From Caulobacter sp. 602-1 (GTDB lineage Bacteria > Pseudomonadota > Alphaproteobacteria > Caulobacterales > Caulobacteraceae), in assembly GCF_003931565.1 (NCBI RefSeq), contig NZ_RRYI01000005.1:62001-126000 (forward strand): 64,000 bases of DNA. Reading direction: 5' to 3'. Positions 30,645-53,258 of the stretch are shown here, one piece after another (positions within the stretch are counted from its first letter, which is position 1; every line of letters starts with the position of its first letter). The notes below the pieces were generated by a model. The model was not told the origin of the DNA. It saw only the letters and a list, made by a program, of their open reading frames with translations, and did not search any database. A program made the position numbers and the translations under genes.

Positions 30645-31200
30645 CAGCTTTGAACTCCCTGTTGTCTTGCCACCATAACGTATACGATATTATAAATATC
30701 GACGTATGGGGAAGCTGGAAATGCCAACTGTCCAGCCCGCAACGGCGCGCGGTTGGCTCCATGTGGCGTTCACCGAGGCCCGGGAACGCGCCGCCGTCCG
30801 TCAAGGCGGCGTCGGCGTCGCGGCCTGCCTGGCCTTGAAGCAAGCTCTGTCGCGCCGGTCGTCGCCGGTCGTTCGCGAGAAGAGGCGCCGGACGAAGGCC
30901 GGATCGTGAGCGCGACCTGACCATAAGAGCGGCAGGTCGGCGGCCAGCCTTCCAACCGTTCACAAATCGGAAACATGGGCTTGACCAATTTCCGATCCAA
31001 TATACCGTATTCTGTATACGGTATGGATCGAGAAGAGCTCTTGGTCCTGAACCCGTCCTAGACGGTGCTTGTCTTCAAGGGATGAGTATCGAGCACTCTC
31101 GCGTGTCCTGTCGGTGATGTGCGCTGCGTGCTTGCATTTGTTTGGTGAGAACTAACGGTCCGAAAACACCTACGAAATCGATCAAAATTGGGGGATGAGC
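30645..31200. promoter_or_regulatory. Divergent control region with two GTATAC operators (sites 2 and 3)
   Basis: This 556-base gap lies between the SnoaL-like gene and the TonB receptor. Site 2 (30675-30690) reads ATAACGTATACGATAT and is followed by AATATCGACGTAT, a second half-site. Site 3 (31002-31024) is a palindrome, ATACCGTA and TACGGTAT around seven bases, with core GTATAC at 31014-31019 and outer GATCC/GGATC arms. A 67-codon frame at 30706-30909 has no homology I recognise and is probably not a gene. The receptor leader after site 3 is about 170 bases and has GGGGG at 31190-31194. Confidence 0.75.
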
Positions 31201-34128
31201 ATGAGAAGTGGTGATCAGAATACGGGCGAGGCTCGGAAAAATCTTCGCTCTATCGTTCTATGTTCCAGCATGATCGGCGGGTTCCTGGCGATCGGAGCGC
31301 CAGCGCTGGCCCAGACGACGCCGGGCGACGCGCCCGCGACGGTCGAGGAGATCGTCGTCACCGGCTCCCGCCTGACGCGGACGGACCTGACGGCGCCCAG
31401 CCCGACCACGGTGGTCGGTGAGATGGAGATCAAGCAGTCGGGCAACGTCACGCTCGAAAAGACCCTGAACCAGTTTCCGCAGTTGGCCGCGGGCAACACC
31501 TCGACCGTAAACAACGGCGGCGGCTCGGGCGTACTGACGGCCAACCTGCGCGGCCTGGGTTCGACCCGGACCCTGGTGCTGGTGAACGGCCGGCGCTTCA
31601 TCCCGGCCAACTCTGCGGCCGACGTCGACTTGGCCAGCATCCCGGATACGCTGATCAAGCGGACCGAAATCATCACCGGCGGCGCCTCGGCTGTCTACGG
31701 CTCGGACGCCATCGCTGGCGCGGTCAATTTCATTCTCAAGGACAATTTCGAGGGCCTGGAAGCCTCGGGTCAGTATGGGGTCACCGATCGCGGCGACGCC
31801 AAGTCCAAGAAGCTGGACCTGACGATGGGCGCCAACCTGGACGGCGGACGCGGCAATGTCGCCATGTCGCTGTCCTACACCAAGCAGGACCCGATCACCC
31901 AGAACGACCGCGACTTCTCCAAGATCCCGCTGGGCGAGGTGAACGGCGCCCTGGTCTATTCGGGTTCGGGCAGCATTCCCGGCACCCGCGTGCCGCTCAG
32001 CGCCACGCAACGCGCCCAGCTGGTGGGCGTCAACCTCACCCCCAGCGGCACGTGCACCTCGGTCACCGGCATCCGCTTCGGCGCGAACGGCGTGGTCCTG
32101 CCGTACTGCCAGCCGGAGGACACCTATAACTACGCGCCGTTCAACCTGCTGCAGCGGCCGCTCGAGCGTTACAACGTCTCGACCATCGGCCACTATAACC
32201 TCACAGACCACGTCACGGCCTATGCCGAGGCGTTCTTCGTCAACTCGCGCAACAACTCGATCCTGGCCCCGGACTCGTTCACGCCGGTGACGCCGGGCGC
32301 GGCGTCCTCGACCCTGCTGGTGCCCAACTACGCCAGCAACGCGGCGCTGACGCCGGCGCTGCGGCAGTTCTTCGTCGACAACGCCGCGATCTTCGACCCG
32401 AACCGCACCGGCACGGCCTCGGTGGTCGGCGGCGGGCGGCGCGCCGACGAGCTGGGCACCCGCAACTCGTTCTACGAGCGCCAGTCCTACGAGATCACCA
32501 CCGGCCTGCGTGGCGATTTCGAGGTGATGGACCACACCTGGCGGTGGGACGCCTTCTACCAGTACATGCGCAACCGCACCGACACCCACAACGAAGGCAC
32601 GATCAACCAGACGCGCCTCAGCCAGGGCCTGGACGCCATCGTTAATTCGGCCGGCCAGGTGGTGTGCCGCAGCGGCGCCCAGGGCTGCGTTCCGGTGTCG
32701 ATCTTCGGCCTGGGCTCGATCAGCGCCGCGGCCGGCAAGTTCCTGACTCCCGATCGCGAATCTCACGACATCTTCGAGCGTCAGGTCGGCGGCGGCTCGC
32801 TCAGCGGTACGCTGTTCACCCTGCCGGCCGGTCCGGTCGCCGTCGCCGCCGGCGCCGAATATCGCAAGGACCAGTACGCCTCGACTCCCAGCGCCTTCGA
32901 CCTGAACGGCGAGTACGGCGCGGCGTCCTCCAACGCCCTGAAGGGCTCGTTCGACGTCAAGGAAGTCTTCGGCGAGCTGCGCGTGCCGATCCTGGCCGAC
33001 CTGCCGTTCGTCAAGACCCTGGCCGTCGAGGGCGCGGCTCGCTACTCGGACTATTCGTCGATCGGCGGCGTGTTTGCGTGGAAGGCTGGCGGCGAGTACG
33101 CGCCAATCGAGTGGGTCCGGTTCCGCGGCGCCTATAACCGCGCGATCCGCGCGCCCAATATCGCCGAGCTCTACGCGGCGCGGGCGCAGGGCTTCACCGG
33201 CGGCACCGACCCCTGCGCCACGGCCCAGAAGCCGACGGCCGCCCAGAAGCAGCTCTGCATCGCCCAGGGCGTTCCGGCCGCCGACATCGAGACCTTCACC
33301 CAGGCCACGCTGGGCCTCACCCAGGAAAGCGGCGGCAATCCGAACCTGACCGAGGAGAAGTCCAGCACCTTCACGATCGGCGCGGTCATCTCGCCGCCGA
33401 TCATCCCGCGCCTGAACATCACGGTCGACTACTTCAACGTCGAGGTGAAGAACGCGATCACGACGATCAACGCCCAGCAGACGCTGAACGACTGCTTCAC
33501 CAACCTCAACCTCAGCAGCGTCACCTGTCAGGCGATCAAGCGCCTGCCGAGCGGCCAGATCGACTTCGTCCGCACCAGCAACAGCAATATCGGCCAGTTG
33601 AAGGTTCGCGGCGTCGACGCCCAGGTCGACTACCGCCTGCCCCTGCCGTCGATGCTGGAGCTGGGCGGGCCGGCCAACCTGTCGCTGACCGCGGTGGCCA
33701 GCTGGCTGTTCGAGCGTTCGACCCAGGTTCTGGCCAACCAGAAGCCGCAGGACTGCGCCGGCTTCTACGGCGCGGGCTGCTCCAGCGGCACCGGCGGTTT
33801 CATCACCCCGGACTTCAAGCTGAACCTCAGCGCCAACTACGCCAGCGGCGACGTCACCCTGCGCCTGGCGGCCCGGATGATCGGCGACCTGGAGCTGTAC
33901 CCGACCGCGACCAACGTCGTGAAGAAGGTCGATCCCACCTGGTACGTCGACGGCTCGTTCGCGGTGAACGTGACCAAGCAGGTGAGCCTGTTCGGCGGGG
34001 TCAACAACCTGTTCGACAAGCAGCCGCCGATCCTGGGCACCACCCTGGTCGGCGACGCCAACACCGACGTGTCGCTCTTCGACACGCTGGGCCGGCGCTA
34101 CTTCATGGGGGCGCGACTGCGCTTCTAG
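31201..34128 (+). CDS. TonB-dependent receptor, predicted peptide/glycopeptide importer
   Basis: A 975-residue outer-membrane receptor. The signal peptide (to about residue 37, GAPALAQ) is followed by a TonB-box-like VEEIVVTGSR and a plug domain (about 55-180, with NLRGLGSTRTLVLVNGRRF and GGASAVYGSDAIAGAVNFIL). The barrel ends in YFMGARLRF. ATG 31201 has GGGGG six bases upstream; ATG 31195 abuts that site and is less likely. It has no STN domain, so it should be controlled by the GTATAC palindrome rather than by FecIR. It heads a long run of secreted peptidases and GH127, whose products or substrates it probably imports. Confidence 0.93.
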   Translation: MRSGDQNTGEARKNLRSIVLCSSMIGGFLAIGAPALAQTTPGDAPATVEEIVVTGSRLTRTDLTAPSPTTVVGEMEIKQSGNVTLEKTLNQFPQLAAGNTSTVNNGGGSGVLTANLRGLGSTRTLVLVNGRRFIPANSAADVDLASIPDTLIKRTEIITGGASAVYGSDAIAGAVNFILKDNFEGLEASGQYGVTDRGDAKSKKLDLTMGANLDGGRGNVAMSLSYTKQDPITQNDRDFSKIPLGEVNGALVYSGSGSIPGTRVPLSATQRAQLVGVNLTPSGTCTSVTGIRFGANGVVLPYCQPEDTYNYAPFNLLQRPLERYNVSTIGHYNLTDHVTAYAEAFFVNSRNNSILAPDSFTPVTPGAASSTLLVPNYASNAALTPALRQFFVDNAAIFDPNRTGTASVVGGGRRADELGTRNSFYERQSYEITTGLRGDFEVMDHTWRWDAFYQYMRNRTDTHNEGTINQTRLSQGLDAIVNSAGQVVCRSGAQGCVPVSIFGLGSISAAAGKFLTPDRESHDIFERQVGGGSLSGTLFTLPAGPVAVAAGAEYRKDQYASTPSAFDLNGEYGAASSNALKGSFDVKEVFGELRVPILADLPFVKTLAVEGAARYSDYSSIGGVFAWKAGGEYAPIEWVRFRGAYNRAIRAPNIAELYAARAQGFTGGTDPCATAQKPTAAQKQLCIAQGVPAADIETFTQATLGLTQESGGNPNLTEEKSSTFTIGAVISPPIIPRLNITVDYFNVEVKNAITTINAQQTLNDCFTNLNLSSVTCQAIKRLPSGQIDFVRTSNSNIGQLKVRGVDAQVDYRLPLPSMLELGGPANLSLTAVASWLFERSTQVLANQKPQDCAGFYGAGCSSGTGGFITPDFKLNLSANYASGDVTLRLAARMIGDLELYPTATNVVKKVDPTWYVDGSFAVNVTKQVSLFGGVNNLFDKQPPILGTTLVGDANTDVSLFDTLGRRYFMGARLRF

Positions 34129-34140
34129 GCGAGTGTCGAG

Positions 34141-34165
34141 GGCCGCGGGCGAAACGCTCGCGGCC
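34141..34165 (+). terminator. Stem-loop after the receptor (attenuator-like)
   Basis: GGCCGCG (34141-34147) pairs with CGCGGCC (34159-34165) around 11 bases, followed by TTT. It sits 12 bases after the receptor stop and 24 bases before the next start. It could lower read-through so that the receptor is made in excess over the enzymes downstream. Confidence 0.45.
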
Positions 34166-34189
34166 TTTCGATCCTGGGGAGGGGAAACG

Positions 34190-35851
<1,662 letters not shown>

Positions 35852-35885: not shown

Positions 35886-37673
35886 ATGAGCAAGGTTTCG
35901 ATGGGACGGGCGATCGCGGCGGCCTTGCTGGCCGCGACTGTCATGGCGAGCGCCGGACAGGCCTCCGCTCAGGCCGGCGCCGCCGACGCGCGGCTGAAGG
36001 CGCTGTACGAGCGGGAGTGGGCCTGGCGGCAGGGCGAGCTGGGCCGGGTCCGCGACGAAAACGGCCGCTGGGGCGACGGCGCCGACCATCTTCCGCGCGT
36101 CGACGCCAAGAGCCAGGCCGCGCGCCTGGCCTACTGGACCGCCGTCCTGGCCGAGCTGGACAAGATCCCGGTCGACCAGCTGTCGTCGGAGGAGAAGATC
36201 AACGCCGAGATCTTCCGCGCCTCGGTGAAGTCCCTGGCCGACAACGCCCGCTTCAAGACCTATGAGGCGCCGTTCAACGCCGACACCTTCTTCTGGTCGG
36301 GCCTGGCCCCGCGCGGCGCGCTGAAGACGGCCAAGGACTACCGCAACTACATCGCCCGGATGCGCGACATCCCGCGCTATTTCGACGAACAGACCGCCAA
36401 TATGCGCAGCGGCCTCAAGCGCGGCTTCAGCGTGCCGCGCGTGGTGGTCACCGGCCGCGACAAGACCATCGAACCCAACCTGTCGACCGGCGCGGACAAT
36501 CCGTTCCTGGCCCCGTTCGAGACCATGCCGGCCTCGATCCCGGCCGAGGAGCAGGCCGCCCTCAAGGCCGAGGCCCAGCAAGTGGTCACCGGGACGGTGA
36601 TCCCGGCCTACGCCAAGCTGCTGGCCTTCATCCGCGACGAGTACATGAAGCAGGCCCGCACCAGTCTGGCGGCCGAGGTCGAGCCGGACGGCAAGGCCTT
36701 CTACCAGGCCCAGATCCAGGGCTTCACGACGCTCGATCTAACGCCCGAGCAGATCCACAAGATCGGCCTCGAGGAGGTCGCGCGGATCAGCGCCGAGATG
36801 GAGACGGTGAAGGCCCAGACCGGCTTCAAGGGTACGATGCCGGAGTTCCTGAAGTTCCTGCGCACCGACCCGCAGTTCTATCCGAAGACGCCCAAGGAGC
36901 TGCTGTCGTTCTCGGCCTATGTGGCCAAGCGCGTCGACGGCAAGCTGGCCGACACCATCGGCTTCCTGCCGCGCCGGCGCTTCGCGATCCTGCCCGTGCC
37001 GCCGGCCCTGGCGCCGATCTACACCGGCGGTCGCGGCGGCCTCGACAGCTGCCTGATGAACACCTACGACCTGCCGTCGCGGCCGCTGTACACCCTGACC
37101 GCCCTGACCCTGCACGAGTGTAATCCGGGCCACGCCTTCCAGGCGGCGGTGGCGGCCGAGGCCAAGAACCGCCCCGACTTCCGCCGCCAGACCTCGTTCT
37201 CGGGCTATGGCGAGGGCTGGGCGCTCTACATGGAGTGGCTGGGCACGAAGATGGGCGTCTACGACACGCCCTATGAGAATTTCGGCCGGCTGTCCTACGA
37301 GATCTGGCGGGCCAGCCGCCTGGTGATCGACACGGGCATCCACCACTACGGCTGGACCCGCGCGCAAGCCCAACAGTACCTGCGCGACCACACCGCGCTG
37401 TCCGAGCACGAGATCGAGACCGAGATCGACCGCTACATCGCCTGGCCCGGCCAGGCCGTGGCCTACAAGCTGGGCGAGATGGTGATCCGCAGGAAGCGGG
37501 CAGAGGCCGAGGCCAAGCTGGGGCCCAAGTTCGACCAGCGCAACTTCCACGACGCGATCCTGGCGCTGGGGTCCGTGCCGCTGTCGACGCTCGAGGCGCG
37601 GCTGGACCAGTTCATCGCCGACGGCGGGGTCAATCCGCCGGGCTTCAATCCGGCCCTGCCCGAAACCAAGTAG
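35886..37673 (+). CDS. DUF885 secreted metallopeptidase, paralog 1
   Basis: A 595-residue exported protein with a signal ending ASAQA. DUF885 proteins are zinc-dependent peptidase-like enzymes; the metal site is HECNPGHAFQ with downstream FSGYGEGWALYMEWLG supplying the Glu. The family DxRLKxLYExEWxWR start and the C-terminal AYKLGEMVIRRKRAEAEAKLG are intact. It is the first of three tandem paralogs in this cluster. The family has been linked to cleavage of small or unusual peptides, but specificity is not visible from sequence. It follows the amidohydrolase by 34 bases and GH127 starts 12 bases after it. Confidence 0.9.
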   Translation: MSKVSMGRAIAAALLAATVMASAGQASAQAGAADARLKALYEREWAWRQGELGRVRDENGRWGDGADHLPRVDAKSQAARLAYWTAVLAELDKIPVDQLSSEEKINAEIFRASVKSLADNARFKTYEAPFNADTFFWSGLAPRGALKTAKDYRNYIARMRDIPRYFDEQTANMRSGLKRGFSVPRVVVTGRDKTIEPNLSTGADNPFLAPFETMPASIPAEEQAALKAEAQQVVTGTVIPAYAKLLAFIRDEYMKQARTSLAAEVEPDGKAFYQAQIQGFTTLDLTPEQIHKIGLEEVARISAEMETVKAQTGFKGTMPEFLKFLRTDPQFYPKTPKELLSFSAYVAKRVDGKLADTIGFLPRRRFAILPVPPALAPIYTGGRGGLDSCLMNTYDLPSRPLYTLTALTLHECNPGHAFQAAVAAEAKNRPDFRRQTSFSGYGEGWALYMEWLGTKMGVYDTPYENFGRLSYEIWRASRLVIDTGIHHYGWTRAQAQQYLRDHTALSEHEIETEIDRYIAWPGQAVAYKLGEMVIRRKRAEAEAKLGPKFDQRNFHDAILALGSVPLSTLEARLDQFIADGGVNPPGFNPALPETK

Positions 37674-37685: not shown

Positions 37686-40058
37686 GTGGAGTCGATCGAT
37701 CGACGCATGTTGCTGGCCATGGCCGGCTTGGCCGCCTCGGCGCCGTCGCTGCTGAGCGCCGCGCCGCTGGCCCCGCTCGGTCCGGCCAGCCCGTTGCCGC
37801 TGGCCGACGTGCGGCTGCTGGATTCGCCGTGGCTGACGGCGGTGGAGGCCAATCGGCGCTACCTCCACGCCCTGGAGCCCGACCGGCTGCTGCACAACTT
37901 CCGCACCAGCGCGGGGCTGCCGGCCAAGGGCGCGGTCTATGGCGGGTGGGAGAGCGACACCATCGCTGGCCACACCCTGGGCCACTACCTGACGGCCCTG
38001 TCGCTGATGTACGCCCAGACCGGCGACTTCGAGTGTAGGCGGCGGGTCGACTACATCGTCGGCGAACTGGCGGTGGTCCAGGCCGCCCATGGCGACGGTT
38101 ATGTCGCCGGCTTCACGCGCAAGCGCGGCGACGTGGTCGAGGACGGCAAGGCGATCTTCCCCGAGCTGATCGCCGGCGACATCCGCTCGATGGGCTTCGA
38201 TCTCAACGGCAGCTGGGTGCCGCTTTACAACTGGCACAAGCTGTTCGCCGGTCTGTTCGACGCCCAGCTCCATTGCGACAATCAACAGGCCCTGAACGTC
38301 GCCGTCGCCCTGGGCGGCTACATCGACGCCGTCTTCGTCCAGCTGAACGACGCCCAGGTCCAGACGGTCCTCGACTGCGAGCACGGCGGCATCAACGAGA
38401 GCTTCGCCGAGCTCTACGCCCGCACCCGGGATCCGCGCTGGCTGGACCTGGCCGAGCGCCTGCGCCACGCCAAGGTCCTGGACCCGCTGAGCCAGCGCCG
38501 CGACTCCCTGCCGTGGATCCACGCCAACACCCAGATCCCCAAGGTCATCGGCCTGGCGCGGCTGCATGAGCTGACCGGCAAGGCCGACCAGGCCGTGGCG
38601 GCGCACTTCTTCTGGGAGACGGTGACCCGCGACTACAGCTACGTGATCGGCGGCAACGCCGACCGGGAATACTTCACCGCGCCCCGCACCATCTCGCGCC
38701 ACATCACCGAGCAGACCTGCGAGAGCTGCAACACCTACAACATGCTGAAGCTGACCCGGCATCTCTATGGCTGGCGGCCCCGGGCGGCGCTGTTCGACTA
38801 TTACGAGCGCGCGCACATCAACCACATCCTGGCCCATCAGGACCCGTCGACCGGCATGTTCGCCTACATGGTCCCGCTGATGTCGGGCTCGGCGCGCCGG
38901 TTCTCGCGGCCGTTCGACGACTTCTGGTGCTGCGTCGGCTCGGGCATGGAAAGCCACGCCAAGCACGGCGACTCCATCTGGTGGCGCAGCGGCGACACCC
39001 TGCTGGTCAATCTCTACATCCCCTCGACCGCCCGCTGGGCCGAGCAGGGGGCGACCTTCCGGATGGAGACCGCCTATCCGTTCGGCGAGCGGGTCGAGAT
39101 CGTGGTCGAGGACTTGGGCGGTCCAAGGGAGGGGAAGGACTTCGGCCTGGCCCTGCGCGTCCCCGGCTGGTGCCAGGGCGCGCGGGTCAGCGTCAACGGC
39201 GAGGCGATGTCGGCGGGACCGGCCGGCGACTACACGGTCCTGCGCCGCGCCTGGCGCAAGGGCGACCGGGTCACGCTGGACCTGCCCATGACGCTGCGCA
39301 CCGAGGCGACGGTCGACGACTCCTCCGTGCTGGCCGTGCTGAAAGGGCCCGTGGTCCTGGCCGCCGACCTTGGACCCTCCAGCCAGCCCTATGACGGACC
39401 CGCGCCGGCGCTGGTCGCCCGCGATCCTCTGACGGGCTTCGTTCCCGTCGAGCCGACGCTGGGCCGGTACCGGACAAAGGGGATCGGCAAACCCGCCGAC
39501 CTGTCGTTCGCGCCGTTCTTCCAGCAGCGCGACCGCCGCACCGCGGTCTATTTCGCCACTTTCGACGAGGCTGGCTGGAAGAAGCAGCAGGTCGCCTACG
39601 CGGCCGAGCAGGCGCGCTTGCAGGACCTGGCGCGGCGCTCGGTCGACGTCATGCACCTGGGCGAGATGCAGGCCGAACGCGATCACGGGCTGGTCGCCAA
39701 GAACAGCTACGCCGTCACCTATCGCGGCCGCCATGGGCGCGATGCGCGCACCTTCGGCTTCTTCGAATACAGGGCTGCGGTGAAGCCGGGGCCGCTGATC
39801 CTGCAAGCCACTTTTTGGGGCGAGGAGCGCAATAAGCGCTTCGACATCCTGATCGATGGCGTCCGCATCGCGACCCAGGCGCTGACCGGTCAGCATCCGG
39901 GCGATTTCTTCGATGTGGACTATCCGATCCCGCAAGAATTGACCCGGGGCAAGGGAAGCGTGACCGTGCGCTTCCAGCCCGCCGATGACACGACCCGCTG
40001 TGGTCCGGTCTTCGGCGTGCGGATCTATGCGCCGGCGGGGTCTTCGAGAACAACCTGA
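37686..40058 (+). CDS. GH127-like beta-L-arabinofuranosidase (DUF1680)
   Basis: A 790-residue exported glycosidase with an RRMLLAMAGLAAS twin-arginine-like signal. The (alpha/alpha)6 barrel has GHTLGHYLTALSLMYAQTGD and LYNWHKLFAGLFDAQ. The zinc/nucleophile site of GH127 is visible: Glu346 and Cys348 in CESCNTYNMLK, and the Cys pair 415-416 in FWCCVGSGMESH, matching Glu338, Cys340, Cys417 and Cys418 of Bifidobacterium HypBA1. Glu328 is a candidate acid/base. HypBA1 removes beta-L-arabinofuranose from hydroxyproline-linked chains of plant extensins. Lying among prolyl-type peptidases and hydroxyproline catabolism, that activity is the best guess; other GH127 members act on other sugars. Confidence 0.88.
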   Translation: MESIDRRMLLAMAGLAASAPSLLSAAPLAPLGPASPLPLADVRLLDSPWLTAVEANRRYLHALEPDRLLHNFRTSAGLPAKGAVYGGWESDTIAGHTLGHYLTALSLMYAQTGDFECRRRVDYIVGELAVVQAAHGDGYVAGFTRKRGDVVEDGKAIFPELIAGDIRSMGFDLNGSWVPLYNWHKLFAGLFDAQLHCDNQQALNVAVALGGYIDAVFVQLNDAQVQTVLDCEHGGINESFAELYARTRDPRWLDLAERLRHAKVLDPLSQRRDSLPWIHANTQIPKVIGLARLHELTGKADQAVAAHFFWETVTRDYSYVIGGNADREYFTAPRTISRHITEQTCESCNTYNMLKLTRHLYGWRPRAALFDYYERAHINHILAHQDPSTGMFAYMVPLMSGSARRFSRPFDDFWCCVGSGMESHAKHGDSIWWRSGDTLLVNLYIPSTARWAEQGATFRMETAYPFGERVEIVVEDLGGPREGKDFGLALRVPGWCQGARVSVNGEAMSAGPAGDYTVLRRAWRKGDRVTLDLPMTLRTEATVDDSSVLAVLKGPVVLAADLGPSSQPYDGPAPALVARDPLTGFVPVEPTLGRYRTKGIGKPADLSFAPFFQQRDRRTAVYFATFDEAGWKKQQVAYAAEQARLQDLARRSVDVMHLGEMQAERDHGLVAKNSYAVTYRGRHGRDARTFGFFEYRAAVKPGPLILQATFWGEERNKRFDILIDGVRIATQALTGQHPGDFFDVDYPIPQELTRGKGSVTVRFQPADDTTRCGPVFGVRIYAPAGSSRTT

Positions 40059-40083: not shown

Positions 40084-41853
40084 ATGAAACGAGTTTCGGG
40101 ATTGGCGATCGCGCTGGGCATGGCGCTGGTCGCTCAGCCGGCGCTGGCGCAGACCAAGCCGGCAAAGCCCGCCATGAGCGCCGCCACCAGCGCCGACGCG
40201 CGCCTGAAGGCGCTCTATGACGCCGAGTGGAACTGGCGCGCCCAGGAGTTCGGCCGCGACGCCGACGACGAGGGCGGCGGCCTGGGCGATCGCCTGCCGC
40301 ATGTCGATCCCGTCAGCCAGCAGCGCCGGCTCACCTATTGGACGAACGCCCTGGCGCAGCTGGACAAGATCCCCGTCGACCAGCTGTCGCCCGAGGAGAA
40401 GGTCAACGCCGCGGTGTTCCGCACCGCACTGGAAGCCTTCGTCAGCCAGATCAAGTTCAAGGAATACGAGGACCCGTTCGGCTTCTGGACCTGGATGGCG
40501 CCGCGAACGGGCTTCGGGACCGTCGCCGAGTACCGCGCCTATCTGGGCCGGCTGCGCGACATGCCGCGCTATGTCGACGAGCAGATCGCCAACATGAAGT
40601 CCGGGCAGGCGCGCGGCTTCACCAAGGCCAGGGCGTCGATCGAGGGCCGCCACACCACCATCGCCCCGCTGGCGTCGAGCGACCCGGCGGCAAATCCGTT
40701 CTTCGGCCCGTTCGCCAACATGCCGTCGTCCATCCCGGCCGGTGAGCGCGACAAGCTGATGGAAGAGGGCAGGGCCGCCGTTACCGGCGCCGCCGCGCCG
40801 GCCTTCGGCAAGCTGCTGGCCTATGTGCGCGACGACTACATTCCGCACGCCCGGACCAATACCGCCGCCGAGAGCCTGCCGGACGGCAAGGCCTTCTACC
40901 AGGCCAAGATCCGCGAATACACGACCACCGACCTGACGGCCGAGCAGATCCACCAGATCGGCCTGAAAGAGGTGGCGCGCATCGACGCCGACATGCAGGC
41001 GACGATGAAGCAGGCGGGCTGGACCGGCGACTTCCAGGGCTTCCTCAAGTACCTGAAGACCGACCCGCAGTTCTACGCCAAGACGCCCTACGAGCTGATC
41101 GCCAAGTCTGCCTATGTGGCCAACAAGGCCAATGGCCAGCTGAAGTTCACCATTGGCCTGCTGCCGCGCTATCGCTTCACCATCGTGCCGACGCCGGCGG
41201 CGATCGCGCCGTTCGGGACGGGCGGCAATGGCGGCCTCGAGAGCTGCCTGATGAACACCTACAACCTGCCGGCCCGGCCGCTCTACACCATCCCGCCCTT
41301 GACCCTGCACGAATGCGTGCCGGGCCACAGCTTCCAGGCCGCCCTGGCGCTGGAAGGCCCCAACCGCCCGGCGATCCGCAAGCGCACTTACTTCTCGGGC
41401 TATGGCGAGGGCTGGGCGCTCTACATGGAGTGGCTCGGGACCAAGATGGGCGTCTACGAGACGCCCTATGACGAGTTCGGCCGCGAGACCTACGAGATGT
41501 GGCGCGCCGCCCGCTTGGTCGTCGACACCGGCCTGCATCACATGGGCTGGTCGCGCCAGCAGGCGCTGGACTACCTGTCCAGCCACACCGCCCTGTCCGA
41601 TCACGAGGTGACCATCGAGGTCGACCGCTACATCAACGATCCCGGTCAGGCCCTGGCCTACAAGCTGGGCGAGATGCTGATCCGCCGCAAGCGCGCGGAG
41701 GCCGAGGCCAAGCTGGGCGCCAACTTCGACCAGCGCTGGTTCCACGACGTCATCCTGGGCCTGGGCTCGGTGCCGCTGCCGACCCTGGAAAAGGCCATCG
41801 ACGACTGGATCGCCGGCGGCGGCAAGAATCCCAACCCCGCGACCGTTTCCTGA
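40084..41853 (+). CDS. DUF885 secreted metallopeptidase, paralog 2
   Basis: A 589-residue exported protein (signal ends PALAQ). ATG 40084 has GGGGAGGAGGGG upstream; the frame is open further upstream but inside the GH127 gene. The metal site reads HECVPGHSFQ, with Val replacing the Asn of paralogs 1 and 3, and FSGYGEGWALYMEWLG follows. The region aligned to FNADTFFWSGL is shortened (DPFGFWTWMAPRTGF), so the substrate pocket may differ. It follows GH127 by 25 bases in the same transcript. Confidence 0.9.
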   Translation: MKRVSGLAIALGMALVAQPALAQTKPAKPAMSAATSADARLKALYDAEWNWRAQEFGRDADDEGGGLGDRLPHVDPVSQQRRLTYWTNALAQLDKIPVDQLSPEEKVNAAVFRTALEAFVSQIKFKEYEDPFGFWTWMAPRTGFGTVAEYRAYLGRLRDMPRYVDEQIANMKSGQARGFTKARASIEGRHTTIAPLASSDPAANPFFGPFANMPSSIPAGERDKLMEEGRAAVTGAAAPAFGKLLAYVRDDYIPHARTNTAAESLPDGKAFYQAKIREYTTTDLTAEQIHQIGLKEVARIDADMQATMKQAGWTGDFQGFLKYLKTDPQFYAKTPYELIAKSAYVANKANGQLKFTIGLLPRYRFTIVPTPAAIAPFGTGGNGGLESCLMNTYNLPARPLYTIPPLTLHECVPGHSFQAALALEGPNRPAIRKRTYFSGYGEGWALYMEWLGTKMGVYETPYDEFGRETYEMWRAARLVVDTGLHHMGWSRQQALDYLSSHTALSDHEVTIEVDRYINDPGQALAYKLGEMLIRRKRAEAEAKLGANFDQRWFHDVILGLGSVPLPTLEKAIDDWIAGGGKNPNPATVS

Positions 41854-41899: not shown

Positions 41900-43681
41900 T
41901 TGTTCGTTCGCTCCCTGATGCTTGTCTCCGCCCTGGCCTTGATGGCCGGCGCTCCGGCGGTCGCCCTGGCCCAGACCGCCGCGCCGGCCGCCGCTTCGGC
42001 CAGCGACGCCGACAGCCGCCTGAAGGCGCTCTATGACACCGAGTGGGCCTGGCGGCAGAAGGAGTTCGGGCGACTGGCCAGTGACGCGCCGTTCAGCGGC
42101 GGCGCCGGCCAGCTGCAGCATGTCGATGCGGCCACCCAGGAGGCCCGCCTGGCCTACTGGACCAAGACCCTGGCCGAGCTGAACAAGATCCCGGTCGACC
42201 AGCTGTCGCCCGAGGAGAAGATCAACGCGGCGGTGTTCCGCACCAGCCTCGAGGCCTTCGTCGCCCAGGGCAAGTACCGGACCTGGGAAGCGCCGTTCAA
42301 CGCCGACAGTCAGTTTTGGTCCGGCCTGTCCGCGCGCAGCGGCTATTCCAGCGCCGAAGGCTATCGCCGCTACATCGGCCGCATGCGCGACGTCCCGCGC
42401 TATTTCGACGAGCAGATCGCCAACATGAAGGCCGGCGTGGCGCGCGGTTTCACCGTCCCGCGCGAGGCCCTGAGCGGCCGAGACGCCACGATCGCCGCCT
42501 TCACCGATCCCGACCCGGCCAAGAACGGCTTCTACGAGGCCTTCGCCAACATGCCCTCGTCGATCCCGGCCGAAGACCAGGAGAAACTGCGCGCCGAGGC
42601 CCGGCAGGTGATCGCCCAGTCGGTGGCGCCGGCCTACCAGAAACTGCTGGCCTATTATCGCGACGAGTACCTGCCCAAGGCCCGCAAGACGATCGCCGCC
42701 GAGGCCTTGCCGGACGGCAAGGCCTACTATCAGGCGCAGATCAAGGAGTTCACGACCACCGACCTGACCGCCGAACAGATCCACCAGATCGGCCTGTCGG
42801 AGGTGGCGCGGATCTCGGCCGAGATGGAGAAGGTCAAGGAACAGAGCGGCTTCAAGGGCGACATGCCCGCCTTCCTGAAGTTCCTGCGCACCGACCCGCA
42901 GTTCTACGCCAAGACCCCGGACGAACTGCTGGGCGTGTCGGCCTATGTGGCCAAGCGCGTGGACGGCAAGCTGAAGGACACCATCGGCCTGTTGCCGCGC
43001 TACCGCTTCACCATCGTGCCGGTGCCGGCCGCCATCGCGCCGTACTACACGTCCGGCCGGGGCGGGCTGGAATCCTGCCAGATGAACACCTACGACCTGC
43101 CGTCGCGGCCGCTGTACCAGATCCCGGCCCTGACCCTGCACGAGTGCAATCCGGGCCACAGCTTCCAGGCCGCCGTGGCCCTGGAGCAGACCGGTCGGCC
43201 GGCTTTCCGCAAGCAGACCTACTTCTCGGGCTATGGCGAGGGCTGGGCGCTCTACATGGAGTGGCTGGGGACCAAGATGGGCATCTACCGGACGCCCTAT
43301 GAGGACTTTGGCCGCCTGTCGTTCGAGATGTGGCGCGCCGCGCGCCTGGTGATCGACACCGGCATCCACCATTACGGCTGGACCCGCCAGCAGGCCATCG
43401 ACTACCTGGCCAGCCACACGGCGCTGGCCCAGCACGACATCGAGACCGAGGTCGACCGCTACATCAGCTGGCCGGGCCAGGCCCTGGCCTACAAGCTGGG
43501 CGAACTGAGCATCCGCAAGAAGCGCGCCGAGGCCGAGGCCAAGCTGGGTCCCAAGTTCGACCAGCGCAAGTTCCACGACGTCATCCTGGCGCTCGGCTCC
43601 GTGCCGCTGCCGGTGCTGGAGGCGCGGATCGACAAGTACATCGCCGACGGCGGCGCCAGCCCGACGACGCCAGCCCCCTAG
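41900..43681 (+). CDS. DUF885 secreted metallopeptidase, paralog 3
   Basis: A 593-residue exported protein. TTG 41900 is chosen because GGAG lies seven bases upstream and it gives a full signal peptide (FVRSLMLVSALALMAGAPAV); ATG 41918 would truncate it. The metal site is HECNPGHSFQ and the GYGEGWALYMEWLG segment is intact. It is closer to paralog 1 than to paralog 2 by eye (FNADSQFWSGLSARSGY, EVARISAEME). All three paralogs keep catalytic residues, so they have probably diverged in specificity rather than decayed. Confidence 0.9.
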   Translation: MFVRSLMLVSALALMAGAPAVALAQTAAPAAASASDADSRLKALYDTEWAWRQKEFGRLASDAPFSGGAGQLQHVDAATQEARLAYWTKTLAELNKIPVDQLSPEEKINAAVFRTSLEAFVAQGKYRTWEAPFNADSQFWSGLSARSGYSSAEGYRRYIGRMRDVPRYFDEQIANMKAGVARGFTVPREALSGRDATIAAFTDPDPAKNGFYEAFANMPSSIPAEDQEKLRAEARQVIAQSVAPAYQKLLAYYRDEYLPKARKTIAAEALPDGKAYYQAQIKEFTTTDLTAEQIHQIGLSEVARISAEMEKVKEQSGFKGDMPAFLKFLRTDPQFYAKTPDELLGVSAYVAKRVDGKLKDTIGLLPRYRFTIVPVPAAIAPYYTSGRGGLESCQMNTYDLPSRPLYQIPALTLHECNPGHSFQAAVALEQTGRPAFRKQTYFSGYGEGWALYMEWLGTKMGIYRTPYEDFGRLSFEMWRAARLVIDTGIHHYGWTRQQAIDYLASHTALAQHDIETEVDRYISWPGQALAYKLGELSIRKKRAEAEAKLGPKFDQRKFHDVILALGSVPLPVLEARIDKYIADGGASPTTPAP

Positions 43682-43725
43682 GACCTTCCCGAAGACCAGA
43701 CCAAGACTTCCATCCGGAGATTTCC

Positions 43726-45315
43726 ATGCGTGCGTATCCCCTCATAGCCGCCCTGGGCCTGGCCGCCCTCGCGGCGCAGCCCGTCCTGGCCCAGGAAAAG
43801 CCGCCGGCCGTCGAGGCCCCGGCCAAGGGTTCCGAAAAGGCCGCCAAGGCCGACGCCCCCGACCTGGCCCAGGCCAGCGCCGAGGAGGACGCCCAGCCCA
43901 GGCGCGGTTCGGTGACGGTCGGCGGCAAGGTCATCGGCTATACCGTCACCCCCGGCACCGTCGTCATCCGCAACGACGACGGCGAGGCGGTGGCCAGCAT
44001 GTTCTACGTCGCCTACGTGGCCGACCGTCCCAAGGGCTCGGCGCCGCGTCCTGTGACCTTCACCTATAACGGCGGCCCGGGCTCCTCGAGCATGTGGCTG
44101 CACATGGGCTCGATCGGTCCCGTGCACGTCGAGACGCCGCTGGTCGAGGTCGCCGCGCCGGCGCCCTACAAGATCACCGAGAACCACGAGACGATGCTGG
44201 ACAAGACCGACATCGTCTTCATCGACGCCATCGGCACGGGCCTGTCGCGGCCGATCGGCAAGTCGAAGGGACCGGAGTTCTATGGCGTCGACCAGGACAT
44301 CGACGCCTTCGCGCGCGGGGTCATGCGCTACCTGACGATCAACGACCGCTGGGACAGCCCCAAGTTCCTGTTCGGCGAGAGCTACGGCACCCTGCGCTCG
44401 GCCGGCCTGGTCCACGCCCTGCAGGAGCGCGGCGTGCAGGTCAACGGCGTCGTCCTGCTGTCGTCGATCCTGAACTACGGCATCCGCCAGCCGGGCTTCG
44501 ACCAGATCTTCGTCACCTACCTGCCCAGCTACGCGGCCACGGCCTGGTACCACAACCGCCTGCAAAACCGCCCGGCGGCGCTGGAGCCGTTCCTTACCGA
44601 GGTGCGCGAATGGGCCCGCGGGCCCTATGCCACGGCCATGGCCAAGGGCTCGGACCTCAGCGACGCCGAACGCTCGGCCATCGCCAAGCAGATGAGCGCC
44701 TATACGGGTCTGTCCGAGAAGTTCCTGCTCAGCGTCGACTTGCGTGTCGAGCTCGGCCGGTTCCGCAAGGAGCTGTTGCGTGACCAGTCGCGCACCGTTG
44801 GCCGCCTGGACTCGCGCTTCAAGGGCATCGACGTCGATGATGGCGGCGACGGTCCCGAGTTCGACGCCACCGACACCTCGATCAGCGGGGCCTATATCGG
44901 CGCGCTGAACAAGTATCTGTTCGGCACCCTGGGCTATAAGACCAAGCTCAGCTACCGCCCGAACTACTACGCCCAGATCGGCGGCGGAAAGTGGGACCAG
45001 AAGCACAGGGCGCCGGGCGGACGCGGAGGCGGCGCTCAGATGGCCCTGGCCGACACCGCGCTCGACCTGTCGATGGCCATGCGCCAGAACCCGAAGCTGA
45101 AGGTGCTGTCGCAGAACGGCTATTACGACATGGCCACGCCGTTCTTCGGGGCGGAGTATGACCTGAAGCACATGCAGATCGATCCGAGCCTGCAGAAGAA
45201 CCTGACCTACAAGTACTACGAGTCCGGGCACATGGTTTACATCAACCCGGCGGTCACCACGCAGTTCAAGAAGGACCTCGACGCCTTCTACGACAGCGCG
45301 ACACAAGGCAACTGA
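43726..45315 (+). CDS. S10-family serine carboxypeptidase
   Basis: A 529-residue exported enzyme (signal ends PVLAQ), followed by a low-complexity Ala/Lys/Glu linker to about residue 58. The S10 signature is clear: oxyanion GGPGSSSMWLHMGSIGP, nucleophile Ser219 in LFGESYGTLR, Asp468 in GYYDMATPFF and His502 in ESGHMVYINP. These enzymes remove C-terminal residues, best at acid pH; some release residues next to proline. It ends the plus-strand receptor-peptidase-GH127 run and is followed by a strong terminator. Confidence 0.94.
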   Translation: MRAYPLIAALGLAALAAQPVLAQEKPPAVEAPAKGSEKAAKADAPDLAQASAEEDAQPRRGSVTVGGKVIGYTVTPGTVVIRNDDGEAVASMFYVAYVADRPKGSAPRPVTFTYNGGPGSSSMWLHMGSIGPVHVETPLVEVAAPAPYKITENHETMLDKTDIVFIDAIGTGLSRPIGKSKGPEFYGVDQDIDAFARGVMRYLTINDRWDSPKFLFGESYGTLRSAGLVHALQERGVQVNGVVLLSSILNYGIRQPGFDQIFVTYLPSYAATAWYHNRLQNRPAALEPFLTEVREWARGPYATAMAKGSDLSDAERSAIAKQMSAYTGLSEKFLLSVDLRVELGRFRKELLRDQSRTVGRLDSRFKGIDVDDGGDGPEFDATDTSISGAYIGALNKYLFGTLGYKTKLSYRPNYYAQIGGGKWDQKHRAPGGRGGGAQMALADTALDLSMAMRQNPKLKVLSQNGYYDMATPFFGAEYDLKHMQIDPSLQKNLTYKYYESGHMVYINPAVTTQFKKDLDAFYDSATQGN

Positions 45316-45375: not shown

Positions 45376-47673
45376 TCAGCGCGCCGCCACCGGCGTGACC
45401 ATCGCGCGCGCGTTCCAGTTCGGCGGCTCCTGGCCGGCCAGGTGGCGCAGGAAGAACTCGAATTCCTTGCGCTGGCCGTAGTCGATCGGGCCGGTGGAGC
45501 GGCCGACGGAATGGCCTTCGCCCGGCACGACCAGCAGGTCGAATTCCTTGTCGGCCTTGATCAGGGCGTCGGCGAACTGCAGGGTCGAGGCGGGGTCGAC
45601 GTTCTTGTCCTGCTCGCCGACGATCATCAGCAGCTTGCCCTGCAGGCGCCAGGCGTTGTCGATCGCCGAGGCGTCCGAATAGCTCTGGTCGACGGGCCAG
45701 CCCAGCCACTGCTCGTTCCAGCTGATCTTGTCCATGCGGTTGTCGAAGCAGCCGGCGAAGGCCACCCCGACCTTGTAGAACTCCGGATGGTAGAGCAGGG
45801 CCAGGGCCGTCGACTGGCCGCCGGCCGAGCCGCCGTAGATGCCGACGCGACTGATGTCGTACCCGGGATACTTGGCCGCCACGGCCTTGTGCCAGAGGAT
45901 CCGGTCGGGGAAGCCGGAGTCGGCCAGGTTCTTCCAGGCCACGTCGTGGAAGGCCTTCGAGCGGTTCAGCGTGCCCATGCCGTCGATCTGCACGACGATG
46001 AAGCCCAGATCCGCCAGGGACTGCATGCCCACCACCTTGTCGCCGCCCGCGTGATAGCCGAACGGCCACCAGGTCTTGGGCACGAAGCTGGAATGCGGGC
46101 CGGCATAGATGTTCTCGATCACCGGATAGCGCTTGGTGGGATCGAAATTCCGTGGGCGGACGATCAGGCCGTGGATGTCGGTTTTCCCGTCGCGGCCCTT
46201 GGCGACGAACGGCTCTGGCGGCTTGAAACCGGCGGCGACCAGCTGGCTGATGTCGGGTTTCTCGAGCATGGCGACCAGGCCGCCGTCACTCGTGCGGCGC
46301 AGCTCCGAGACCGGCGGCAGGTCGACGCGGGAATAGGTGTCGACATAGAGGCTGGCGTCCGGCGACAGGGCCACGTCGTGATAGGCGTCGGCGCTGGTCA
46401 GGGCCGTCAGCCCCTTGCCGTCGAAGCCGATGCGATAGACGTGCTGGAAGTAGGGATCCTGACCGGCGACCATGCCGCTGGCGGCGAAGTAGATCTGGCG
46501 CTTGGCCTCGTCGACCTTCAGCACTTGGCGCACCACCCAGGGGCCCTTGGTGATCTGGGTCTTCACAGCGCCGGTCTTGCCGTCGAACAGGTAAAGGTGG
46601 TTCCAGCCGTCGCGCTCGGACATCCAAAGGACCTCGCGGCCGTTGTCGATGTCCTGCCGGAAGCGGCGGCCCTCATTGATGAAGGTCTTGGCCGTCTCGG
46701 TGACCACGGCGCGCGGCTGGCCGGTTCTGGCGTCGATCTCGATCACGCGGGCCAACTGGTGGCCGCGCTGCTCGTAGATGAAGGACACCGTGGCGCTGTC
46801 CTTGCGCCATTCCAGCTTGGAGAGGTCGTAAGGGTTGGCGAACAGGTCGTCCGGCGTCGGCAACTGCTTGCCTTCGGCCGCCAGGAAGACGACCGGCCGC
46901 TCGATGTCCACCGCGTCGCCGGGCTTCGGATAGAGCTGGGTCTGGAGCTTGGGCTGCACCTGATCGGCGGGACGGGCCTCGACGCGATAGACGATGCGCC
47001 GGAAGCCGGGGCGCACGCGATAGGCGGCCAGCTTGGCCGAGTCCGGCGACCAGACGATCGACTCCGGATCGTAGAAGTTGGCCTCCGAGCCGTCGGTGCT
47101 GATCCGTTTCCAGGCTCCGCCGACCGGGCGCACGGCGATGTTGAAGTTCTCGACACGCGCCTCCCACTGGCCGTCGGGCGAGCGGCGCGGATGGTTGTCG
47201 GCCGGGACGGACAGGTCGCGCACCACGCCGAAGCCGCTGGGCCGACCTGGCCGGGGCGCCTCGGCGCAGCTGTAGTCGGTCAGCGTACAGCGCCAACCGG
47301 CTTCATTGAACGCGAAACGGATCGCCGCGCCCTTGTCGGCGAAGGTGAAGGTCTCGAACGGCAGCCGCAGCGGGTCGAAGGTCGTGTTGGCGGCCTTGCC
47401 GAGGCCGGCGGCGATGCGGGCCTGGTCGAAGCTGGGCGTCTTGGCGCCGGTCTTGACGTCGTAGGTGACGAAGGCGAAGCCGCCCTCGACCGTCTTGCGG
47501 TAGAATAGCTTGTCGTCGCCCGACCACCCGGCCGGATCGGCGACGTCGCGGGTCAGGTACATCTGCGTCTCGCGCAGCCGCAGCGAGCGCGTCATGTCCT
47601 GAGCCGTCACCTGCGCAAGGACCGGTGTCGCCTGCAGGGTCAACGCCAGTACGATCAATCCGCCAGTCCGCAT
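45376..47673 (-). CDS. S9-family dipeptidyl peptidase (DPP IV-like)
   Basis: A 765-residue exported prolyl peptidase with a signal ending TPVLAQ. The N-terminal 480 residues form an eight-bladed-type propeller (DPP IV N-terminal domain: [31 protein letters not shown]). The catalytic domain has Ser616 in YGGSAGGQS, Asp689 in VGEQDKNVD and His721 in [13 protein letters not shown] enzymes release Xaa-Pro dipeptides from peptide N-termini, which would feed the M24 peptidase and amidohydrolases here. The start ATG 47673 has GGGGA upstream. Its promoter shares operator site 4 with the divergent gene. Confidence 0.94.
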
Positions 47674-47701
47674 GTACAGTCCCCAGGACGCTCGTCGAGT
47701 T

Positions 47702-47722
47702 ATCGTATTATGTATACGGTGA
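47702..47722. promoter_or_regulatory. GTATAC operator (site 4) between divergent genes
   Basis: ATCGTATTATGTATACGGTGA has its core GTATAC at 47712-47717. It shares CGTATT-N-TGTATACGGT with site 3. The gap between the two starts is only 84 bases, so one bound regulator could block both the dipeptidyl peptidase and the duplicated secreted protein. Confidence 0.72.
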
Positions 47723-47757
47723 GGCTTGGCGAGGTGAAGCCCAAAGGGGAGGGAAGC

Positions 47758-48981
47758 ATGTCGGTATTTCGCAAGGCGCTGGCCGGGACGGCCCTGACGC
47801 TGCTGCTGGCGGGGCCGCTCCAAGCGCAGACGGCCGCCACGCCGCCGCAACAGACCGAGTCCGACGGCTACACGCGCTATGAACTGCTGGGCCCGGGCAG
47901 TCACAAGTTCCGGATCGTCTACGAGATCACCGCCAGCACGCCAGGGGCGAGCGCCTACTACAATCCCATCCGGCCCGGCAGCGTGGCCACCGACGAAAGC
48001 GTCAGCGACCGCGCCACCGGCAAGCCGCTGAAGTTCGACGTGGTCGGCGGCGATGTCGCCAAGGCCGGCGGGGTGCGCGGGGCCAGTCCCGACGGCAGCT
48101 ACATCCGCGTCGAGCTGGCCCATCCGGTGCCGGCCGACGGCGGCGAGGGCCGGGTGCTGATCGACAAGACCTATGAGGACGCCAAGAGCTACTATCAGGA
48201 GGGCGAGCTGATCGTCTTCGACCGGCCGCTGGGCGTGAAGCGCAACGCGGTGGTTCTGCCGGCGGGCTACGAGCTGGTGTCCTGCAACTATCCGGCCCAG
48301 GTGCTGCAGGAGGCCGACGGCCGCCTCAAGATCGCCTTCTGGAACAACACCCCGGCCCAGGCGCCGCTAGTGGTCAAGGCGCGGCCTTCGCCGAACCTGA
48401 AATCTGGCGCCTCGTCACAGGCCAAGGCGCTGGACGAGCGCGCCCACCAGAGCCGCGAGATCGCGTACTTCCTGCAGCCGCCGGAAACCCACAGCTTCGA
48501 TCTCTATCACGACTACACCGAGACCCGGCCGGGCGTGGGCGTCTATGTCAATATCGTCCGGGCCGGCAGCGCCGCCTCCAAGCCATCGGCGCGCAACCTC
48601 GACACCGGCGCGGCCCTGAAGTGGGAGATGCTGAAGGGCGCCGACATCCTGAAGGCCGCGCCCGACCAGAAGGGCGTCACGCCCGAGACCGAGGCTATCG
48701 TTTTCCACTTCGATCCCGTGAAGCCGGGCCAGAGCGCTCGCCTGCGCTTCAGCGAGACCTATACCGACGCCGAGCGCTACACGCTGGTCGGCGACGAGCT
48801 GGTCTGGCGGCGGTCATTCGGCCGGCCGCTGAACACCGTGGTGCTGCCCGCCGGCTGGGTGCTGACCAACAGCTCCGTCCCGGCCACGGTCAAGACCTTG
48901 CAAGACGGCCGCGTCCAGCTGGAGTTCATCAACCCCCGCACCGACGAGATCGACACCATCATCACGGCGCGACGGCGCTAG
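47758..48981 (+). CDS. Secreted protein of unknown function with two internal repeats
   Basis: A 407-residue exported protein; the signal ends LQAQ and GGGGAGGG precedes ATG 47758. The mature protein is two homologous halves, about residues 38-215 and 225-405. Matching positions include [20 protein letters not shown] / [33 protein letters not shown] / [25 protein letters not shown] / [12 protein letters not shown] and [20 protein letters not shown] / [20 protein letters not shown]. The pattern is of two beta-sandwich domains. I recognise no family. Shared operator and export suggest a binding or enzymatic role in the same peptide/glycopeptide pathway. Confidence 0.82.
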
Positions 48982-50530: not shown

Positions 50531-51178
50531 CTAGGCCGACAGCTGCTGCTTCAGGTCCTTCATCGTGCCGCGGATGTGGGCGGCGGTCAGGGACTCGACC
50601 TTGGCGGCGTCGCCCTTCAGCCAGGCGTCGAGAAGCTCGCGATGCTCCTCGGCCGCACGGGCTTCCCGGCCATAGGGCTCCAGGTGGACGCGCACATAGC
50701 GCTCGGCCAGGACCTGAAGGCGTTCCAGCAGCTGATAGGTGACCAGGCCGCCCGAAGGCCGGATCATGGCCATGTGGAAGGCGCGGTTCATCGACACGTG
50801 ATCGCCCGGGGCGCCGCTCTGCTGGGCCGTCTCGAGGGCGGCCAGGGCGGCCTTGACCACCTGCTGATCCTCGGGCGTGGCCTTCTTGCAGCCCGCGGCC
50901 GTCGCGCCGGGCTCCAGCTTGAGGCGCAGATCGAACACCTCGTGCGCCTCGTCGACCGACAGCGGCCGAACGACATAGCCGCGGTTCGGGTAGGAGCTGA
51001 GCAGGCCGTCCTGCTCCAGCCGGCTCAGGGCCTCGCGCAGCGGGATCTTGCTGACCCCCAGCTCCTCGGCGATCGTGTCCTGTCGCACCGGCGTCCCAGG
51101 GGCCATCTGGCCCAGCAGGATACGCTTGCGGACCAGCTCATAGGTCTGGTCGGAGAGGGTGCGGACGACGATGGTCAT
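50531..51178 (-). CDS. GntR/FCD-family transcriptional regulator of the cluster
   Basis: A 215-residue FadR-subfamily regulator. Residues 10-75 are the winged helix (QTYELVRKRILLGQMAPGTPVRQDTIAEELGVSKIPLREALSRLEQDGLL). The FCD effector domain has EVFDLRLKLEPGA, the metal/ligand-type segment MNRAFHMAM and an EEHRELLDAW His. Such regulators usually repress and are released by a pathway intermediate. It is the third gene of the deaminase-epimerase-gntR transcript, and the GTATAC motif found at six promoters of this region fits the known FadR-type operator shape, so it is the likely binder; the ligand may be hydroxyproline or a downstream compound. Confidence 0.93.
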   Translation of the reverse strand: MTIVVRTLSDQTYELVRKRILLGQMAPGTPVRQDTIAEELGVSKIPLREALSRLEQDGLLSSYPNRGYVVRPLSVDEAHEVFDLRLKLEPGATAAGCKKATPEDQQVVKAALAALETAQQSGAPGDHVSMNRAFHMAMIRPSGGLVTYQLLERLQVLAERYVRVHLEPYGREARAAEEHRELLDAWLKGDAAKVESLTAAHIRGTMKDLKQQLSA

Positions 51179-52301: not shown

Positions 52302-52331
52302 GGCTGATCGACAGTCCTGGTTGATCGGGGC

Positions 52332-53231: not shown

Positions 53232-53258
53232 ACCGCTTGCACCTCTGTGATGTTCGTC

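Follow-up and report, generated by a model that had tools for sequence, protein, structure and literature searches.

The 64,000-nucleotide stretch of Caulobacter sp. 602-1 that was analysed as a whole, hereafter the window (G000:C197:62001-126000 in a 5.44 Mb assembly that is 99.99% complete; G+C of the window 67.8%), carries at 37686-40058 on the forward strand the gene of a predicted beta-L-arabinofuranosidase of glycoside hydrolase family GH146, set among genes of DUF885 proteins and followed 11 kb downstream by a predicted gene set for the catabolism of 4-hydroxyproline (4-Hyp) at 50531-57260. Judging from the sequence, we consider it likely that the region is a utilization locus for hydroxyproline-rich plant glycoproteins of the extensin type, and that a zinc-dependent, retaining GH146 enzyme with C415 as nucleophile, probably a periplasmic protein exported by twin-arginine translocation (Tat), acts there. 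What is observed, and what this reading builds on, are the genes with their family assignments, an active site that is conserved, the fold of the model and a recurrent linkage between the glycosidase and the 4-Hyp genes.

The open reading frame (ORF) of the enzyme begins with GTG, encodes 790 amino acids and has no internal stops in its translation. PF07944, PF20736 and PF20620 each matched above their cut-offs. The family PF07944 is named after GH127, yet it spans GH146 as well, and the zinc site is common to the whole clan. A phmmer search against solved structures ranked BT0349 first (5opj, GH146; E 6e-141, 474 bits), matching in the barrel and then again in the C-terminal domain, followed by Bll3HypBA1 (GH146; E 1.5e-46, 162 bits), while the best GH127 enzyme was Ara127N (E 1.2e-23, 86 bits), whose alignment poorly covers the region of the HypBA1 substrate residues H142, Y145, H194 and R273. 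An AlphaFold2 model built from 27 sequences (mean predicted local distance difference test score, pLDDT, 87; residues 32-782) overlaid BT0349 with a Z-score of 47.3, a root-mean-square deviation (rmsd) of 5.3 and 38% identity over 722 aligned residues; for the entries 8qf8, 6yqh and 5opj together the values were Z 45-47, 722-723 residues and rmsd 5.2-5.3. The model contains the GH146 architecture of an (alpha/alpha)6 barrel, beta-sandwiches and the BT0349-type helix linker and jelly roll. Because the phmmer ranking and the fold overlay both favour BT0349 over GH127, the enzyme is, by sequence and model, a GH146 member of the BT0349 type and an intact retaining cysteine glycosidase. The sequence-only reading of this stretch had labelled it GH127 and proposed a structural comparison with HypBA1; the model does overlay HypBA1 (Z 37.6, rmsd 3.5, 538 residues), but BT0349 is clearly closer and the identity to HypBA1 is 19%, so that the GH127 label was dropped, sequence and fold both lying nearer to GH146. 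The NCBIfam model for aceric acid hydrolase was likewise dropped, its score of 72 bits lying far under the cut-off (950). Among named organisms, the closest homologues of the enzyme come from Sphingopyxis and other Sphingomonadales, with up to 78% identity.

The same reading had pointed to Cys-Cys and Glu-x-Cys residues at nearly the HypBA1 positions, and this is correct: E346-x-C348 and C415-C416, the predicted zinc ligands, have as HypBA1 counterparts E338, C340, C417 and C418 (PMC10728902). By alignment, C415, E346, C348 and the acid/base residue E328 correspond to C416, E339, C341 and E320 of BT0349, and W177, E232 and Q662 to W162, E217 and Q689; the BT0349 positions E320, E339 and C341 were derived from the alignment, with the chain number plus 2 giving BT0349 numbering by residue count. 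C416 is the nucleophile of BT0349 (PMC10728902). In Bll3HypBA1 the acid/base residue E694 aligned with E328, and E723, C725 and C805 with E346, C348 and C416 (PMC10850190). E346, C348, C415, C416 and E328 were invariant in 98 of 98 rows, namely 84 of the close group (83 relatives plus the window enzyme itself) and 14 from distant paralogues (L096, L097, L103 and L104, with weak or split glycoside hydrolase matches, were excluded from the residue counts and the tree), so the match to HypBA1 is not a chance one. With zinc, nucleophile and acid/base residues all kept and a model that overlays solved GH146 and GH127 enzymes, the earlier suggestion of a true active enzyme is supported as a prediction. 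Residues 6-7 form a twin-arginine pair, which 82 of the 84 rows share in the alignment, the remaining two having a gap. A stricter twin-arginine pattern was present within the first 60 residues of the called ORFs in 76/84; most of the misses trace to N-termini that are truncated or too long. This conservation supports the GTG start, and the signal suggests Tat export of a folded, metal-loaded enzyme. In BT0349 a jelly-roll lid lies over the active site (PMC10850190), which suggests small substrates for the window enzyme as well.

The 4-Hyp gene set had not been mentioned in the sequence-only reading. The epimerase route of 4-Hyp breakdown comprises an epimerase, a D-hydroxyproline dehydrogenase, a deaminase and a semialdehyde dehydrogenase. 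The set includes a 4-hydroxyproline epimerase (51291-52301, reverse strand), which has two catalytic-type cysteines (MCGHG, SPCGTG), passes the curated NCBIfam model NF010578 (537.9 bits, cut-off 376) and is the sole match to the Pro_racemase family in the genome. It is accompanied on the reverse strand by a GntR/FCD regulator (50531-51178; PF00392, PF07729) and a protein of the dihydrodipicolinate synthase (DHDPS) family, probably a 1-pyrroline-4-hydroxy-2-carboxylate deaminase (52332-53438; PF00701 from residue 76, the true start probably lying after the ORF start). On the forward strand follow an FAD-dependent oxidoreductase of the D-amino acid oxidase (DAO) family, a probable D-hydroxyproline dehydrogenase (53307-54587; PF01266, D-amino acid dehydrogenase models under cut-off), an M24 peptidase, probably a cytosolic prolidase (54584-55786; PF00557 and PF01321, Xaa-Pro dipeptidase models under cut-off), and an APC-family amino acid permease (55719-57260; PF13520). 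As predicted from these family matches, the set is the known epimerase route except for its final step, no 2-oxoglutarate semialdehyde dehydrogenase (Aldedh) being among the 39 window ORFs scanned against Pfam.

Linkage of this set to GH146 recurs widely. In the flanks of 79 named GH146 relatives (up to 10 kb per side, 16 of the 79 stretches being shorter) we found an epimerase in 31, DHDPS in 31, DAO in 32, M24 in 30 and DUF885 in 44; aldehyde dehydrogenase (7) and a POT peptide transporter (6) were rarer. Linked relatives include Sphingopyxis, Sphingobium, Sphingomonas, Asticcacaulis, Nitrospirillum, Niveispirillum and Steroidobacter, with several gene orders. Compared with the epimerase of the window, 27 of the 31 scored at least 459 bits and four 160-188 bits. 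Among the other 48 relatives, whole genomes were searched for 41 and the flank only for seven (L008, L018, L040, L062, L063, L071, L076), L062 having DHDPS, DAO and M24 up to the contig end. An epimerase over the cut-off was present in 16 of the 41, at 9.2-23 kb from GH146 in 11, where the placement on one contig is judged from agreement in contig number and spacing; the unlinked cases were L022 (27.8 kb away) and L029, L031, L075 and L079 (epimerase on a differently numbered contig). At the level of the order, all 13 genomes with a close GH146 (at least 850 bits) hold an over-cut-off epimerase, compared with 56/398 overall, and it lies 0.8-17.5 kb off GH146 on the same contig in ten; where only a distant GH146 (700-830 bits) was present, an epimerase was found in 2/13 genomes, on another contig. 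At the level of the phylum, among the matches listed, the three genomes besides that of the window whose GH146 reaches 850 bits all hold an epimerase, 2.8-12.8 kb from GH146, compared with 51/397 overall. A Fisher test gave p 2e-12, or 2e-11 once the genome of the window is excluded, values that overstate the case because kinship is ignored. The glycopeptide substrate proposed from the sequence alone thus gains support through the recurring linkage to 4-Hyp catabolism and prolidase.

Three further observations were made in these flanks. In the Steroidobacter and Peristeroidobacter loci (L016:15054-16019, L017, L019) the epimerase near GH146 is only distantly like that of the window, and the one of L016 (Steroidobacter), which is among the four at 160-188 bits, best fits a different 4-Hyp epimerase model, under its cut-off (408 versus 450). 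A reductase of the Ldh_2 family (L003:8867-9883), perhaps a 1-pyrroline-2-carboxylate reductase, often lies beside GH146 or prolidase and occurs in 23/79 flanks. DUF5695 (PF18951), a protein of about 900 amino acids, is a frequent neighbour of GH146 (24/79 flanks, e.g. L030:12404-15157, reverse strand) and possibly a further part of the system; a search of the window genome gave no match, but neither did the control genomes, so its absence is not established.

The immediate neighbours of the glycosidase gene are DUF885 genes: protein a (35886-37673; PF05960, E 1.2e-147), protein b (40084-41853; E 1.4e-138, obtained with a longer ORF that begins at 39985 and within which the ATG at 40084 was chosen by eye) and protein c (41900-43681; PF05960), all on the forward strand. 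Both direct neighbours thus belong to PF05960 with E < 1e-130. The gaps of 12 and 25 bases noted before are confirmed by the ORF coordinates, and an RBS-like (ribosome-binding site) sequence, GGAGGAGGGG, precedes the ATG of protein b. This spacing makes it plausible that the GH146 and DUF885 genes are made from one message; promoter-like (1, with 1.2 expected) and terminator-like (9, with 8.2 expected) signals in the region were at shuffle level and uninformative. By eye, all three DUF885 proteins begin with Sec-like signal sequences. The earlier description of them as metallopeptidases has support at the level of the fold. In place of the canonical HEXXH motif stands HExxPGH, with H414, E415, P418, G419 and H420 (numbering of protein c) invariant in 21/21 sequences. 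The predicted model of protein c (pLDDT 87.5) matched the solved DUF885 structures 3o0y, 3iuk and 3u24 with Z-scores of 39.2, 33.1 and 30.6. The remaining 47 listed structure matches, with Z 13.8-9.1 and rmsd 3.9-6.7, were all zinc peptidases, belonging to MATCAP, M32, M3, M2 (ACE, ACE2) or M1; the likeness is only moderate, since helical folds can reach a Z-score of about 13 by chance. Given the M32/M3/M2-like fold of the model, peptidase action of DUF885 is likely, its HExxPGH motif being unusual. The three solved DUF885 structures share family and fold with protein c, and their entry titles state no function; no open-access paper with DUF885 or PF05960 in title or abstract was found, subscription papers lying outside the search.

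Further predicted peptidases and a likely point of entry surround this group. Upstream on the forward strand lie a TonB-dependent receptor (31195-34128; Plug PF07715 and barrel PF00593), probably for outer-membrane entry, and an amidohydrolase (34133-35851; PF01979) weakly like amidohydrolase-type Xaa-Pro dipeptidases (NF051886, 68.6 bits, far under the cut-off of 500). Downstream follow a serine carboxypeptidase-like S10 protein (43330-45315, forward strand; PF00450, E 1.1e-7), whose ORF overlaps protein c and whose true start is, by a signal-like sequence, probably Met133 at about 43726; an S9 peptidase of the DPP-IV/prolyl-oligopeptidase family (45376-48123, reverse strand; PF00930, PF00326), the N-terminal part of whose ORF is probably non-coding (signal-like Met151); and a second amidohydrolase (48962-50461, reverse strand; PF01979), somewhat like the same dipeptidases (NF051886, 148 bits, again under 500). 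Between the peptidase and 4-Hyp gene groups, 47710-48981 encodes a secreted-looking protein of 423 amino acids with no Pfam or NCBIfam match.

In extensins, serine carries alpha-galactose and hydroxyproline carries chains of arabinofuranose (Araf). The latter are also described in PMC6085000. We hypothesize that glycopeptides would enter via the TonB receptor and that the arabinosidase would take beta-L-Araf off hydroxyproline. The bared peptide could then be shortened by the periplasmic DUF885, S10, S9 and amidohydrolase-type enzymes, and small products taken up by the permease, after which the M24 prolidase would free hydroxyproline and the epimerase, the D-hydroxyproline dehydrogenase and the DHDPS-type deaminase would convert it towards 2-oxoglutarate. 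What this scheme takes on inference is which substrate the enzyme acts on, that it is exported, that DUF885 proteins cleave peptides, in what order the steps run, and that the genes are co-transcribed and induced. A more far-reaching idea, which we offer tentatively and hold to be doubtful, is that DUF885 proteins are prolyl or hydroxyprolyl zinc peptidases with a stretched HExxPGH motif that partner GH146 on arabinosylated hydroxyproline peptides. Together with the 4-Hyp operon they might form a self-contained apparatus, spread over Alpha- and Gammaproteobacteria, that mineralizes hydroxyproline-rich glycoproteins down to the sugar, the peptide bond and the amino acid, possibly acting on arabinosylated plant peptide hormones as well.

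Several findings weigh against the extensin-type reading. No epimerase lies within 25 kb of GH146 in 37 of the 79 relatives (seven of them searched in the flank only), five of the 37 having an over-cut-off epimerase farther away or on another contig. The flanks of a Duganella/Oxalobacteraceae group, whose enzymes are 57-62% identical, lack DUF885 and 4-Hyp genes, and the 19 genomes of this group that were searched contain nothing closer than an epimerase relative under the cut-off (208-243 bits). The DAO, M24 and DHDPS proteins of the window fall short of the specific equivalog cut-offs of NCBIfam, and no HypBA2- or HypAA-like gene that would first trim longer Ara3-4 chains was seen in the window. 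When kinship is taken into account, DUF885 and epimerase linkage co-vary only weakly and without significance (3.5 versus 1.0 among 6 pairs; p 0.375). The 4-Hyp label changes 7 times on the GH146 tree compared with 27 in shuffles and therefore follows kinship. This was a quick tree with a long-branch warning; independent contrasts had 6 usable pairs, and rows without an epimerase label (16/98) or a DUF885 label (10/98) came mostly from short contigs, L070 being unlabelled with an epimerase later located 9.2 kb away. Two genomes of the phylum among the matches listed, G549 and G829, combine a GH146 of 733 and 404 bits with a below-cut-off epimerase relative at 18.3 and 11.4 kb, so that close and distant GH146 are not strictly divided; the stretches are G549:C1:122814-144350 and G829:C14:179547-193439, and on this sequence evidence the sugar-hydroxyproline linkage may reach beyond the close GH146 clade. 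Finally, the distant paralogues have the same catalytic residues, so that the active-site residues checked are by themselves uninformative on hydroxyproline versus arabinan.

This last point also counts in favour of a rival reading, in which a BT0349-like enzyme would act on beta-linked Araf of pectic arabinan or of the side chains of rhamnogalacturonan I (RG-I), its peptidase setting being incidental. Among solved structures BT0349 is closest to the window enzyme, and the two have the equivalent tryptophans W162 and W177 and the jelly-roll lid in common. We nevertheless regard this alternative as unlikely. The hydroxyproline linkage is widely recurrent, and the genome already has another GH146 in an arabinan-type cluster (L114, G000:C175:598300-618200; gene 8836-12189, reverse strand), beside two GH43, a GH51-type enzyme, LacI and a TonB receptor, with no 4-Hyp genes in that stretch. 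By best-hit assignment, no homologue of the GH43 and GH51 partners of this paralogue occurs in the 79 flanks. Conversely, none of the 14 flanks taken around distant GH146 paralogues, each reaching about 11 kb at most per side, holds any of the 4-Hyp and glycoprotein set; five contain GH51 homologues and two an arabinan-type GH43.

We judge it more improbable still that the locus serves proline and hydroxyproline peptides generally, such as those of collagen or gelatin, and that the arabinosidase is just carried along. The majority of the genes are indeed for peptidases and amino acid catabolism, and 4-Hyp derives from collagen, too. However, the enzyme retains its twin-arginine signal and every catalytic residue, and some related loci have GH27, GH43 and GH2 genes, although GH146 itself, as the search anchor, is present there by construction. 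DUF885, GH43 and a GH27 alpha-galactosidase homologue occur in 4/4 same-genus loci with a close homologue (Pfam checked in one, L107); two of these have the 4-Hyp genes within the stretch, the third ends with the contig and the fourth has an epimerase on another contig. The GH27 homologue, found near GH146 in L105-L108 and in L019, would suit the serine-linked alpha-galactose of extensin. Removal of beta-1,3-linked Araf from arabinogalactan protein, on which the GH146 enzyme Bll3HypBA1 acts (PMC10850190), is scarcely credible here, with I522, the residue thought to set its beta-1,3 specificity (PMC10850190), replaced by W177 as in BT0349 and an overlay identity of just 27-28%.

Elsewhere in the window, at 8564-13720, genes of the malate synthase and isocitrate lyase families are grouped with a divergent ScfR-type regulator in a glyoxylate-shunt-like cluster. 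At 15928-22525, an extracytoplasmic function (ECF) sigma factor, FecR, a CarboxypepD-type TonB receptor and a PhoD phosphatase stand in a row that resembles a signalled phosphate-scavenging unit.

Extensins are plant wall proteins that are hard to digest, and we know of few described bacterial routes for their use. The linkage reported here predicts a natural substrate for one branch of GH146, offers the DUF885 family a testable substrate class, and splits the two GH146 paralogues of one genome by role, into hydroxyproline glycoprotein and arabinan.

Known 4-Hyp catabolic operons likewise pack the epimerase, DAO and DHDPS genes with a GntR/FCD regulator; unlike them, the set of the window adjoins an arabinosidase and prolyl-type peptidases, and the semialdehyde dehydrogenase was not seen. 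BT0349 (BtGH146; PDB 5opj, 6yqh, 8qf8) of Bacteroides thetaiotaomicron shares with the window enzyme the GH146 family, jelly-roll lid, nucleophilic cysteine, zinc site, acid/base glutamate and the equivalents of W162 and E217. We know of no partner in hydroxyproline catabolism for BT0349. It differs in its 38% identity and in lying in an RG-I locus (PMC10850190). HypBA1 (GH127) of Bifidobacterium longum belongs to the same clan and has the Zn(Cys3Glu) site and cysteine nucleophile, but it is a dimer listed in GH127 with different sugar-binding residues and the low identity given above, and the bifidobacterial system for hydroxyproline-rich glycoproteins to which it belongs concerns sugars only (PMC5928203, PMC8106489). 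Extensin use in Latescibacteria has been proposed from GH127 (PMC4454575). Precedent for cleavage of Araf-beta-Hyp by the window enzyme comes from XeHypBA1 and Bll4HypBA1, both GH146 enzymes with this activity (PMC6085000, PMC10850190). XeHypBA1 (XCV2724) of Xanthomonas euvesicatoria is, by description, of similar length (cloned residues 44-791), but has GH121 and GH43 partners and an HrpX-type promoter box; a prolyl oligopeptidase gene beside xehypAA, reported as frameshifted, is suspected to be a helper for hydroxyproline-rich glycoproteins (PMC6085000). The words "catabolism", "gene cluster" and "GH146" are absent from the main text of that paper, and in the open-access literature, to the extent of its accessible text and with subscription papers outside the search, we found no description of a locus joining hydroxyproline epimerase or catabolism with an arabinofuranosidase or extensin. 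The kind of enzyme is known, and what appears to be new, within that search, is the predicted combined kit for using the sugar, the protein and the hydroxyproline.

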